Source: a virus. From it: a DNA stretch of 38,431 nt. A model generated the notes under the pieces. It ran no database searches. It had not been told where the DNA came from and saw nothing but the letters and a program-made list of their open reading frames with translations. Below, piece after piece: positions 21,563-26,512 of this stretch. Numbering within the stretch: the first letter of the stretch is position 1; each line of letters starts with the position of its first letter. A program made the position numbers and the translations under genes. Location of the stretch: positions 1 to 38,431 of the IMG/VR virus record IMGVR_UViG_3300027985_000625; one strand, written 5' to 3'.

Positions 21563-21708
21563 TGACATTTGCAGAAATAGGTAAAGTTCTCGGCATTACC
21601 GCGACAAGAGTTAAGCAGATCGAAAAGTCCGCTATGGAGAAGATCCGCATGACTATGAAAGAGCGCGGGTTGACTTTTGATTATTGGGAGGTTGATTATG
21701 ACTTATGA
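21562..21708 (+). CDS. Mini sigma-region-4-like HTH protein
   Basis: This 48-codon gene overlaps the previous stop (TAATG) and ends inside the start of the helicase gene. Its product contains TFAEIGKVLGITATRVKQIE followed by KSAMEKIRMTM, a close match to the helix-turn-helix of sigma70 region 4.2 (the consensus contains EIGxxLGVTxxRVRQIExxALxKLR). Nothing resembling region 2 is present. It could bind -35 elements or compete with host sigma factors. Confidence 0.6.
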   Translation: MTFAEIGKVLGITATRVKQIEKSAMEKIRMTMKERGLTFDYWEVDYDL

Positions 21709-23053
21709 TGAATTCATACAAAGAAAAAGGCACGAAAGTGCTGAATTCGGATTTAGCCCCGTTTTTATCCCGGATTGCTCTTTTGATTTTCAACAGCATA
21801 TCATAGATAATGCAGTCAGAAAAGGTCGCATGGGCATATTTGCAGATACAGGACTTGGAAAAACACTTATTCAAATTTCAATCGCTCAAAACATGATTCA
21901 GAAAACAAATGGGAAGGTTCTTATTTTGACACCTCTTGCAGTTGCTTTTCAATTTATCGACGAAGCAGAAAAAATAGGTGTAGATGATATTGAATATTCC
22001 AAAGATGGAAAGCATTCAAAAAAGATTGTCATTTGTAATTATGAGCGTTTGCATCATTTTGATAGTAAAGACTTTCAATGTGTTATTCTGGACGAAAGTT
22101 CAATTTTGAAAAACTTCAATGGGCAAATCAAAAATAAGATTACATCGTTTATCAAAAAAGTTCCATATCGATATCTTGCAACCGCTACACCTTCGCCTAA
22201 TGATTTTATCGAATTAGGTACGAGTAGCGAGGCATTGGGGTATATGGGATACACGGATATGCTGACAAAGTTTTTCCGAAATAACCAGAATAGCGTTGAT
22301 AATAATAACCGTAACATCGGTGAAAAATTCTATCTCAAACCGCATGCGGAACAAGCATTTTTCCAATGGGTTAATACATGGTCAATGATGATCAAAAAAC
22401 CTTCTGATATTGGCTTTTCAGACGAAAGATATGCTTTGCCTGAACTTATTACTAATAGCCATGTGGTAAAAAACAATTCGCTTTTCGGTAATGGAAAATT
22501 ATTTATTACGGAAGCAAAAACAATGCCTGAAATACGGGAAGAACAGAAGCAGACCGAAAAGGAAAGATGCGAAGAAGCTGTTTCACTTGCAAGCGGAAAG
22601 ACGTCCGTATACTGGTGTAATACAAACAATGAAAGTTCATTGCTCAAAGAAATGGATTGCGATGCGGTAGAAATCATTGGCAGCCAAAGCATAGAGCAGA
22701 AGGAGGAAACATTACGAGCATTCGCTCATGGGGATATTAAAAGAATCATCACAAAGGCAAAGATGACAGGGATGGGCCTGAATTGGCAACACTGCAACCA
22801 CTCCGTATTTTTTCCGACATGGAGTTACGAACAATACTATCAAGCAGTAAGACGCTTTTGGCGTTTCGGTCAGACAAAAGACGTGACGATTGATCTTGTT
22901 ATTTCGGAAGGGCAAACAAGGGTGATGAAAGCCCTGCAAGAGAAAACACAAAAGGCACAGGAACTATACGCAAATCTTGTTAAAAATGTGAATTGTGAAT
23001 ATATAGAAACAAAAAATTCCGATCTTAAAAAGATCGAATTGCCAAAATTCTAA
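21698..23053 (+). CDS. Snf2-type DEAD/DEAH helicase (AT-rich cargo)
   Basis: I chose ATG 21698 after GGGAGG, giving 451 residues. An in-frame ATG at 21677 is less supported. Walker A (DTGLGKT, residues about 49-55), LDESS (motif II, about 131), TATPSPND (motif III) and motif VI QAVRRFWRFGQTKDV (about 381-395) define an SNF2-like helicase or translocase. Codons are AT-rich (about 37 % GC by eye) versus neighbours near 53 %, so the gene is probably a recent acquisition. It is paired with the methyltransferase downstream. Confidence 0.85.
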   Translation: MTYDEFIQRKRHESAEFGFSPVFIPDCSFDFQQHIIDNAVRKGRMGIFADTGLGKTLIQISIAQNMIQKTNGKVLILTPLAVAFQFIDEAEKIGVDDIEYSKDGKHSKKIVICNYERLHHFDSKDFQCVILDESSILKNFNGQIKNKITSFIKKVPYRYLATATPSPNDFIELGTSSEALGYMGYTDMLTKFFRNNQNSVDNNNRNIGEKFYLKPHAEQAFFQWVNTWSMMIKKPSDIGFSDERYALPELITNSHVVKNNSLFGNGKLFITEAKTMPEIREEQKQTEKERCEEAVSLASGKTSVYWCNTNNESSLLKEMDCDAVEIIGSQSIEQKEETLRAFAHGDIKRIITKAKMTGMGLNWQHCNHSVFFPTWSYEQYYQAVRRFWRFGQTKDVTIDLVISEGQTRVMKALQEKTQKAQELYANLVKNVNCEYIETKNSDLKKIELPKF

Positions 23054-23063
23054 GGAAATGAAA

Positions 23064-24074
23064 ATGACAAAAGTGAAAAATCAAGTTCTGACGGATAGAT
23101 ATGCAATTTATAATGATGATTGCATGAACGTTATCACGCAATTGGAAGATAGAATCATTGATCTATCAGTGTACTCTCCCCCATTTGCCGGGCTTTACAA
23201 TTACAGTTCTGATCCGAGAGACTTTTCAAACTGCGAAAGCAAAGAACAGTTTTTGGAACAATACGAATTTCTCATCAAAGAAATGGCAAGGATTACAAAG
23301 CCTGGGCGCATCAATGCAGTTCATTGCACAGATGTTTTTGATAATACTTGCCGCCTTTGGGACTTTCCTCACGAGATAATAAAACTGCACGAAAAATACG
23401 GTTTTGAATATCGTAATCGTATTACCATTTGGAAAGAGCCGCTGAAAGTCAGAATGCGAACTATGGTCCAAAGCCTAATGCATAAATTCATTGTTGAGGA
23501 CAGCACGAAATGCTTTACCGCAATGCCTGACTATATGCTTATTTTTACGCGCAAAGGAGAAAATGAAGTTCCTGTAACGCACCCATTCGGTATCAATGAA
23601 TACGCAGGAGAAATCCCTATCCTACCAAACATTCTACGCGCATGGAATAATGCAAATGGTACGGACTTCAATGCGGATGAGCTTTGGGATCATCTTAATA
23701 AAACAAACGATGATGAGAAAATCACGAAACTGAACCACTACATTTGGCAACGGTATGCCTCTGCCGTATGGGATGATATCCGTATAGACAATGTACTTCC
23801 ATTCAGAGACGCAAAAGAAGAGGACGATGAAAAGCATGTTCATCCGTTGCAACTTGACGTTATCGACCGTATCGTCGAGCTGTATAGTAACCCTGATGAG
23901 GTTGTATTCACTCCGTTCATGGGTGTTGGAAGCGAAGTATTCAGCCCGGTATCGATGGGACGTAAAGCTATTGGTATTGAATTGAAAGATAGCTACTTTA
24001 AGCAAGCTATAATTAATATGAAAGAGGCCGAAAAACGTTACGAAAAAAAATATGTTCAGCCAAGTCTATTTTAG
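23064..24074 (+). CDS. Site-specific DNA methyltransferase, beta class
   Basis: I chose ATG 23064 because AAGGA lies at a sensible distance, while ATG 23058 is too close. The catalytic SPPF motif is at about residues 38-41 and the SAM-binding TPFMGVGSE motif at about 282-290. This order (catalytic motif first) marks the beta class of N4-cytosine or N6-adenine methyltransferases. The gene is AT-rich like the helicase and immediately follows it. The pair may methylate phage DNA to escape restriction, or be a split helicase-methylase similar in concept to P1 DarB. Confidence 0.85.
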   Translation: MTKVKNQVLTDRYAIYNDDCMNVITQLEDRIIDLSVYSPPFAGLYNYSSDPRDFSNCESKEQFLEQYEFLIKEMARITKPGRINAVHCTDVFDNTCRLWDFPHEIIKLHEKYGFEYRNRITIWKEPLKVRMRTMVQSLMHKFIVEDSTKCFTAMPDYMLIFTRKGENEVPVTHPFGINEYAGEIPILPNILRAWNNANGTDFNADELWDHLNKTNDDEKITKLNHYIWQRYASAVWDDIRIDNVLPFRDAKEEDDEKHVHPLQLDVIDRIVELYSNPDEVVFTPFMGVGSEVFSPVSMGRKAIGIELKDSYFKQAIINMKEAEKRYEKKYVQPSLF

Positions 24075-24865: not shown

Positions 24866-25057
24866 TTGAAACTCACCGCAAAATCATTTGAAGCGAAAGC
24901 AAAAAAGGCAATTTTGTCTAACGGTTCCTCACGCTATGACCTCAACGTGCTAGTTAACAAAGCCGTACATCAACTTAGAACATCAAAAGAGCACGATCCT
25001 GAACTCGCACATCAGGTGACGATTGCGAAAGAGCTTTTGAGATTGGAGCTGGTGTAG
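24866..25057 (+). CDS. Small helical protein before the replication gene
   Basis: The 63-aa product starts with TTG, with AAAGGA six bases upstream. It has a basic N-terminus (FEAKAKKAILSNGSS) and a helical C-terminus (LAHQVTIAKELLRLELV). Its TAG overlaps the GTG start of the replication protein, so translation is probably coupled. Function unknown. Confidence 0.55.
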   Translation: MKLTAKSFEAKAKKAILSNGSSRYDLNVLVNKAVHQLRTSKEHDPELAHQVTIAKELLRLELV

Positions 25058-25920
25058 TGGCACGGATCAGAACGGTAAAGCCTGACCTATTCAGGCACGA
25101 AGAGCTCTTTGAAGCCGAGCGCGTTAGTGGTCTACCGCTGCGCCTGGCGTTCATCGGACTCTTCACGGTAGCCGATCGAGATGGTAGATTCAAGTGGCGC
25201 CCGCGGCAGCTGAAGCTCGACGTGCTCCCATATGACGATATCGACTTTTCACGCGTGCTTGACGCGTTAGCCACGCGTGGCTTTATCGTGAAGTACACCA
25301 AAGATGGGGAGCATTTCGGGTTCATACCGACATTCACGACCCACCAGGTCATCAACAACAGGGAAAAAGAGTCAGAACTCCCACCTTACGAGGATTCAGA
25401 GACAGAAGAGCCCGAAAATACGGAGAATGATCAACGCGTGGACGACGCGTGCCAGACGCGTCACGTTCCTGCACAAGGGGAAAGGGAAGGGAAGGGAAGG
25501 GAAAAGGAAGGGGAAGATAATACATGTCGCGACTCTGGCGAGCTCGACGAAGCGAAAGAGGTAGCCTACCATCTCCTCGGAAGAATTGTGAATCACAAGC
25601 CGAATTTCAAGAAGCCGTCCGACAAAGCATTCGATGGATGGGTGAACGATATCGGGAAATCACTGCGTATTGACGGCAGAACGAAGCAGGAGCTCTTCGG
25701 CTGCATCGAGTGGATATACACTACGAAGGACGGAGAGTTCTGGATACCTAACATCCTGAGCGGAAAGAAGCTCAGGGAGAAGTTCGACACGATGGAAGCG
25801 AAGATGATGAACAGCAGGGAATACCGTAATGCTAAGACAATCAAGGAGTGGGAGCCGACGAACCCGATGACTGGAAAACCATACACGGAGGAAGAAAATG
25901 CTTACGAAATCTCTTTTTGA
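25057..25920 (+). CDS. Replication initiator / replisome organiser (lambda O-like role)
   Basis: The 287-aa protein starts with GTG overlapping the previous stop. The N-terminal 105 residues form a winged-helix domain typical of phage replisome organisers (MARIRTVKPDLFRHEELFEA, then LRLAFIGLFTVADRDGRFKW). A charged low-complexity linker (about residues 110-165) follows, then a helical C-terminal domain (DKAFDGWVNDIG, WIYTTKDGEFWIPNILSG). It would bind the origin and load helicase. Two ACGCGT triplets and a purine tract lie within the gene. The next gene is a DUF6475-type protein, comparable to a helicase loader. Confidence 0.75.
   Translation: MARIRTVKPDLFRHEELFEAERVSGLPLRLAFIGLFTVADRDGRFKWRPRQLKLDVLPYDDIDFSRVLDALATRGFIVKYTKDGEHFGFIPTFTTHQVINNREKESELPPYEDSETEEPENTENDQRVDDACQTRHVPAQGEREGKGREKEGEDNTCRDSGELDEAKEVAYHLLGRIVNHKPNFKKPSDKAFDGWVNDIGKSLRIDGRTKQELFGCIEWIYTTKDGEFWIPNILSGKKLREKFDTMEAKMMNSREYRNAKTIKEWEPTNPMTGKPYTEEENAYEISF
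25251..25461 (+). repeat. Iteron-like ACGCGT clusters; candidate replication origin
   Basis: ACGCGT occurs at 25251, 25262 and 25273, and again at 25434, 25445 and 25456. Each triplet has exactly 11-base spacing, about one turn of the helix. The second triplet lies in the low-complexity linker of the initiator, where a protein reason for it is weak. Its placement inside a lambda O-like gene resembles lambda ori. A 43-base purine tract follows 14 bases later. Confidence 0.65.
25475..25517 (+). repeat. Purine tract with five- and four-G runs
   Basis: A 43-base stretch contains only A and G, with six runs of three or four G: 25477-25480, 25484-25486, 25489-25491, 25494-25496, 25499-25501 and 25510-25513. 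The central AAGGG unit repeats at 5-base spacing. It could form a G-quadruplex or triplex and may be the melting or helicase-loading part of the origin. It encodes the Glu/Gly/Lys-rich linker of the replication protein. Confidence 0.7.
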
Positions 25921-26512
25921 CGAGATGATGTTCATGATGTGCGAGATTTACAATCGTGAAGCAAAGAAGCTTCTGCTCAACGGCTATTGGATGATTCTGA
26001 AGCACATGAGCGACGACGACTTCAAGGCCGCAATTTTGTCGTTACTGGCAACGAGACAGTCACCAGCAATGCCGAAGCCTGCCGAGATCATGGAATTTAT
26101 TCGACCTGACCTCGAAGCAATCGCAACGCTTGCCGTTATCGACATTGAGAACGCGGTTAGCCGGCACGGAGTCTACTCCAGCGTATCGTTCGACGACCCA
26201 GTCGTAAACAGCATCGTCGATCACCTCGGCGGATGGATAGCAGTATGCAGAATGGACCTCAACGACTGGAAGTTTGCGAAGAAAGAAATTCCTAGGCTGT
26301 ACGGGGTCTATGCCAGGAGGGAACGACACCCGGAGCACCTGGTAGGAATGCATGAGAGGTCGAACGGATTTGTTCAGGAGGTGCGCACGGTCGGCGCAGG
26401 GTACCGCCTGCCGAACGTCAGGACCGTTCATGCGCTTAACCCGCAGCCGAAAAAAGACATGGCGGTGGTATCGATGCTGGCGGAATCAAAAAAAGTGAAG
26501 GAGAACGCATGA
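25898..26512 (+). CDS. DUF6475-like protein (possible helicase loader)
   Basis: The 204-aa protein overlaps the replication gene end by 23 bases and starts after GGAGG. Helical N-terminus (FDEMMFMMCEIYNREAKKLL, then LNGYWMILKHMSDDDFKAAI) and a RQSPAMPKPAEIMEFIRP segment fit DUF6475 proteins, which usually sit after replication initiators. The position matches lambda P or a DnaC-like loader, but it lacks a Walker A motif. Function is inferred from context. Confidence 0.6.
   Translation: MLTKSLFDEMMFMMCEIYNREAKKLLLNGYWMILKHMSDDDFKAAILSLLATRQSPAMPKPAEIMEFIRPDLEAIATLAVIDIENAVSRHGVYSSVSFDDPVVNSIVDHLGGWIAVCRMDLNDWKFAKKEIPRLYGVYARRERHPEHLVGMHERSNGFVQEVRTVGAGYRLPNVRTVHALNPQPKKDMAVVSMLAESKKVKENA

Follow-up and report, generated by a model that had tools for sequence, protein, structure and literature searches.

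The replication origins of phage lambda and its Stx phage relatives lie midway along the initiator gene, O, where several initiator sites stand beside an opening tract. In lambda the iterons are inverted repeats to which dimers of O bind, and the adjacent tract is AT-rich with almost all of its purines on one strand (PMC5043065, PMC7466680). In SPP1, oriL is located within gene 38 and contains direct repeats bound by the origin-binding protein, with a helicase loader and a DnaB-type helicase following in the pathway (PMC6316719). At the Bacillus subtilis oriC, the DnaA-trio/DnaD recognition element consists of short-period tandem elements that sit beside the double-strand initiator sites and are read as single strands (PMC10201434). 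Here we report on a 38,431 bp viral DNA sequence (IMG/VR record IMGVR_UViG_3300027985_000625, positions 1 to 38,431), referred to below as the window, in which two clusters of the hexamer ACGCGT inside a replication initiator gene very probably constitute the phage's own replication origin.

The initiator gene (25057..25920, plus strand) starts with GTG and encodes a protein of 287 amino acids, whose N-terminal domain (residues 1-141) matches the replication initiation protein family phrog_16167 (E=2.6e-46) and places it within that family; there is no Pfam match. In an AlphaFold2 (AF2) model built on a 41-sequence alignment, residues 1-110 form a confident winged helix, followed by a disordered linker (residues about 121-158) and a helical C-terminal part that is less certain. 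Iteron array I (25251..25278, no strand assigned) has ACGCGT at 25251, 25262 and 25273 and encodes helix 64-73, which lies just before the wing hairpin in the model and is presumed, by analogy with other winged helices, to be the recognition helix. Array II (25434..25461, likewise strandless) has the hexamer at 25434, 25445 and 25456 and encodes part of the disordered linker; the spacer between the arrays (25279..25433) is 155 bp long with a guanine-cytosine (GC) fraction of 0.48. An earlier note on this DNA had proposed the two triplets as origin iterons, and its description of them holds throughout: all six copies are present, the spacing within each triplet is exactly 11 bp, the triplets are offset by 183 bp, and both are in codon phase 2, encoding SRVLDALATR and QRVDDACQTR, so that the peptide RVxDAxxTR appears twice.

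The count of ACGCGT across the window, which that note had suggested as a check, is nine copies in 38,431 bp where an order-2 model expects 9.7, and six of the nine are in the arrays. Triplets phased at 11 bp are expected from composition at about 6e-7, and two are observed, the only ones in the window, which contains no further independent near-triplet with up to three mismatches in total. Among 20,000 shuffles of the gene that preserved both the protein and its codon usage, six copies were never reached (mean 0.9, maximum 5), and one or more phased pairs arose by chance in 3.8%. We also considered and rejected a specific genome-wide avoidance of ACGCGT, as the three copies outside the arrays, set against about ten expected, resemble the depletion that many other palindromes also show in this DNA, and the relatives differ from one another in this respect.

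The arrays recur in relatives whether these are sought through the DNA or through the protein. When viral contigs are scanned for exact matches to ACGCGT-N5-ACGCGT-N5-ACGCGT, at least 120 triplet loci are found, and among the loci listed 103 of 120 are inside an open reading frame (ORF) of the window's initiator family; a second array is present at many of them, and the two are mostly separated by 157-216 bp. On bacterial genome contigs 37 of 117 triplet loci fall in the initiator family, and the remainder are mostly single stretches at unrelated places, many of them in high-GC genomes. For the protein-first approach, relatives were picked by the N-terminal ~60 residues alone, which end upstream of array I. 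The best 80 matches were taken for each of two subfamilies, A (the window's) and B (more distant), so that it is the nearer relatives that are described; the sets comprise 57 non-redundant genes for A and 66 genes for B. Pairs of ACGCGT at exactly 11 bp are present in 49 of the 57 subfamily A genes, and ACGCGT ranks first among all hexamers recurring at this distance. Subfamily B has 11-bp pairs in 38 of 66 genes and 10-bp pairs in 26, with almost no other short spacing, a mixture predicted by a rule of one helical turn; these genes are without the array I peptide, and the array is generally in the linker only.

The distance between the starts of arrays I and II in the relatives is 146-216 bp. 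Helical phasing between the two arrays was tried as an explanation and set aside: the distances do cluster in 11-12-bp steps, but the clustering could come from array units having been gained or lost. Named carriers include Vibrio phage 1.131.O, podovirus ct4oC223, and plasmids of Bradyrhizobium ISRA432 and Endozoicomonas gorgoniicola. The Bradyrhizobium plasmid, 46 kb in size, carries the tract together with both arrays. Vibrio phage VvAW1, a relative that has been cultured, has an array II pair followed by a 45-nucleotide tract of the kind described below, with an array I that is partly decayed.

If the hexamers were by-products of a conserved peptide, the synonymous positions should be free to vary, and they are not. 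Array I is in codon phase 2 in 45 of 47 relatives, and seven of its codons are spelled almost uniformly as the hexamers dictate: Ser ends in A (39/41, against a background of 0.19), Arg is CGC (43/44; 0.31), Asp is GAC (37/40; 0.57), Ala is GCG (45/47; 0.31), Leu is TTR (44/49; 0.25), Thr is ACG (40/41; 0.39) and the second Arg is CGT (41/42; 0.18). The corresponding p-values range from 1e-6 to 1e-30, and these overstate independence because the sequences are related, although a very large effect is seen once relatives above 80% identity have been excluded. Array II occurs in phases 1, 0 and 2 in 21, 19 and 7 genes respectively, and since all three phases are used the conserved thing is the DNA and not the peptide. 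The same note had named retention of the peptide with loss of the hexamers as a pattern that would tell against an origin. The opposite is found, with array I synonymous sites near-fixed to the hexamer spelling, and with array II retaining its hexamers through changes of codon phase and peptide.

A further element, overlooked in the earlier note, begins 13 bp past array II. This is a homopurine tract, AAGGGGAAAGGGAAGGGAAGGGAAGGGAAAAGGAAGGGGAAGA, of 43 nucleotides (25475..25517, plus strand), which together with array II encodes the linker and is a candidate site of opening or strand capture. A long homopurine run of GGGAA/GGAA repeats follows array II in almost all relatives. A purine run of 18 nucleotides or more is present in the linker region of 49 of 57 subfamily A and 61 of 66 subfamily B genes, and in neither set does one ever occur within the first 280 nucleotides of the gene; the tract is downstream of the array in 45/48 (A) and 54/54 (B) relatives. 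Codon choice was examined in windows rich in Gly, Lys, Arg and Glu, defined at the peptide level to guard against circularity. Arg is encoded by AGR in 57 of 68 cases inside these windows and 255 of 1352 outside in subfamily A, and in 87 of 104 and 174 of 1361 in subfamily B, while Gly is GGR in 224/228 inside and 433/994 outside (A). Such purine-only choice argues that the nucleotides were selected, or generated, as a purine repeat. The window tract contains a G3+ quadruplex motif at 25477-25501, and similar motifs are present in 32 of 57 (A) and 25 of 66 (B) genes, so that quadruplex formation is possible but not general. In one relative (L382) the tract is inverted, with the pyrimidine run TTCCTTTCCTTTCCTTTCC on the sense strand (gene nucleotides 430-448) after the ACGCGT arrays.

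The comparative evidence, with hexamers constrained at the nucleotide level and recurring within an initiator family, thus supports the origin-iteron reading of the earlier note. We infer that the winged-helix domain would recognise each ACGCGT palindrome, probably in dimeric form, and that sites one helical turn apart would line the protein up along one face of the DNA at array II as a nucleoprotein array; array I, which lies 183 bp further upstream, could serve in bending, looping or titration. The complex formed at array II would then open the polypurine tract next to it, or take hold of one strand of that tract, which would fill the role that the AT-rich element has in lambda. The C-terminal part of the initiator (residues 109-267) matches both the DnaD-like helicase loader family phrog_2514 (E=6.5e-18) and the O-like family phrog_391 (E=1.5e-12), and this part, possibly with the product of a neighbouring gene, would bring in the replicative helicase.

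Several features of lambda are reproduced at this locus: the putative initiator sites are inside the initiator gene, they form an ordered array of symmetric repeats, here palindromic hexamers spaced at 11 bp, and a strand-asymmetric purine tract lies beside them. The differences are that the sites are 6-bp palindromes at 10-11 bp, organized in two arrays about 150-215 bp apart, that the tract is a G+A homopurine run and not AT-rich, and that the initiator is one without a Pfam match. Because no adjacent AT-rich unwinding region was found, we describe the proposed origin as lambda-like in its working and distinct in type, and we regard it as a widespread, apparently undescribed form of the lambda-like intragenic iteron origin. 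The Bacillus phage SPP1 oriL is similar in having repeats within the origin-binding protein's own gene, but it has an AT-rich unwinding element where the window has a polypurine tract, and SPP1 has a second origin, oriR. Iteron plasmid origins such as those of P1, pSC101 and RK2 have long direct-repeat iterons outside coding sequence, whereas here the sites are 6-bp palindromes, one turn apart and inside a coding frame. The DnaA-trio/DnaD element resembles the tract in its short-period tandem units adjoining double-strand initiator sites, but here the period is 4-6 nucleotides and the units are all purine. We also considered whether the pyrimidine strand might hold a DnaD recognition element of the TnnT type and rejected the idea, as by eye the TTCCC repeats create no TnnT.

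The hexamer itself is not constant. Among the seven subfamily A genes without ACGCGT pairs, five carry CACGTG in the linker, at two or three sites each (the average for all seven is 1.71, against 0.12). These carriers (L277, L281, L288, L304 and L312) keep the tract, and in most of them the sites directly abut a GGGGAAGGG tract. A scan for three copies of TGCGCA at 11 bp, meant as a negative control, yielded 44 loci, only one of which has an ORF matching the window's initiator profile; it uncovered another initiator-like family (MSWIKVRTHLATHPKVVRIACALCAHP...; M[SN]WIKVRTHLATHPKVVRIACALCAHP...) with phased arrays inside the gene, and having met a family of the same layout it is not a clean control. 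The TGCGCA arrays are at gene nucleotides 49 and 328 in L424, L436 and L462 and at 493 in L463, with a purine tract of 23-48 nucleotides after the second array in all four; in L459 the arrays are at 67 and 358, and the purine run is just 11 nucleotides long. Their layout and sequence style suggest that these proteins are initiators, although they have no match to the window's profile. Triplets of ACGCGT at 11 bp are also contained in two DUF1376 ORFs (L044 and L092, the latter with an AGGAC tandem repeat right after) and in L032 and L107 (ORF MAWIEAHQGLAQHPKTKRMARMLGIS...), where a run of AACATAAC/AGAAC-like repeats follows; all four ORFs probably encode other phage replication proteins.

In more distant relatives the linker-coding part of this gene carries other short tandem repeats, of TGATTC type in L407 (JBD44), L411 (IME307) and L406 (F10) and as five copies of GGAACAGG in Gordonia phage Matteo (L418); L415 (Acinetobacter SR) and L419 (Hafnia yong1) likewise have short tandem repeats there. 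All of these may be elements of one kind with the tract. Taken across families, the sequences point to a shared layout of a specificity array followed by a short-tandem tract, and we lean slightly towards an unrecognised general class of phage origin, in which turn-spaced palindromic hexamers in the initiator gene are combined with a polypurine tandem tract replacing the AT-rich element. Several of the initiator families that carry different hexamers (ACGCGT, CACGTG, TGCGCA) are mutually unmatched in profile searches. If such a class exists, the occurrence of one layout with different hexamers in several unmatched families would make the tract the shared signal for opening or helicase loading and the hexamer an exchangeable address.

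It is extremely improbable that the hexamers are made merely by a repeated RVxDAxxTR peptide or by duplication of a short segment, an alternative the earlier note had left standing, and that the DNA has no function of its own. The window triplets do share a codon phase and encode similar peptides, but this is outweighed by the synonymous constraint at array I, the three codon phases of array II, and the linker array of subfamily B, which exists without the array I peptide. The triplet spacers, compared by eye, are identical at just two of ten positions, which does not support a recent segmental duplication. Duplication is not needed, and the tests above refute the peptide-or-duplication account as the only explanation. 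MluI also recognises ACGCGT, and a phage DNA methyltransferase gene (23058-24074) lies 1 kb upstream, raising the question as to whether the motif is read by a host protein or by a phage or host DNA methyltransferase. This we regard as very unlikely, since motif and initiator occur together in alpha-, beta- and gammaproteobacterial elements and on contigs labelled Acidobacteria and Phycisphaerales, so that the motif goes with the phage initiator rather than with any single host, and since related initiators have a different hexamer at the same place.

A role of the arrays as operator or partition (centromere-like) sites, bound by the winged-helix protein or by some other regulator of the phage and serving autoregulation or segregation and not the start of replication, is unlikely, if less so than the explanations above. 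Structural matches of the initiator include plasmid segregation winged helices such as TubR and AspA, and the VvAW1-like Vibrio phages have further exact-11-bp ACGCGT pairs beyond the initiator gene (NC_020488.1 positions 6961, 20084 and 25522, partly common to the records of L255, L259 and L267), which sit in a DarB-like gene, the portal gene, and the gap between gp20 and the single-strand-binding protein gene, ssb. These pairs also weigh against a purely replicative function, and the sites may serve other roles too. Set against an operator or partition role are the location of the arrays in mid-gene and not at a promoter, the adjoining tract in fixed order, the DnaD/O-like C-terminal part, and the helicase loader or DnaB gene that is next in several relatives.

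Other observations count against the arrays being an origin. The GC skew, proposed as a check in the earlier note, has no switch at 25.4 kb and gives no support; it appears to follow gene orientation. No AT-rich element was found near the arrays, either in the window, where the tract region has a GC fraction of 0.53, or in the family average of both subfamilies, in which the AT fraction is 0.47 over the 40 bp from the tract start with no AT-rich peak nearby. The structural matches of the initiator are to generic winged helices, which speaks to fold and not to function, and a Foldseek search with the model gave no match at E <= 0.001. In the open-licence papers searched we found no experiments on binding, replication or origin mapping for members of the family. 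Finally, the gene beside the initiator in the window (25898..26512, plus strand) encodes a DUF6475 protein (PF20081, E=1.9e-13) and not a recognised loader. Several relatives have a helicase loader or DnaB gene right after the initiator, where the window has DUF6475, and the Endozoicomonas plasmid has DUF6475 as in the window; from this synteny we propose that the DUF6475 product is a replication partner. For the initiator a sequence search of the PDB found no relatives, and for the DUF6475 protein the matches were all weak and implausible. Upstream of the initiator, the window has a low-GC stretch (21677-24074; 0.38-0.40) with tandem helicase-like (DEAD/SNF2) and N4/N6 DNA methyltransferase genes.

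Full-text searches of open-licence papers returned none that, by title or abstract, describes this motif together with phage and an iteron or origin, and to our knowledge the origins of most environmental phages are unmapped. If the arrays and tract are the origin, the sequences of well over a hundred contigs reveal its position, the specificity of the initiator and the candidate opening element. The layout recurs in very many phages that are uncharacterised, so that a hidden class of origins becomes testable. The gene is also a case in which a coding sequence, including that of the presumed DNA-recognition helix, has been shaped by a DNA site lying within it.
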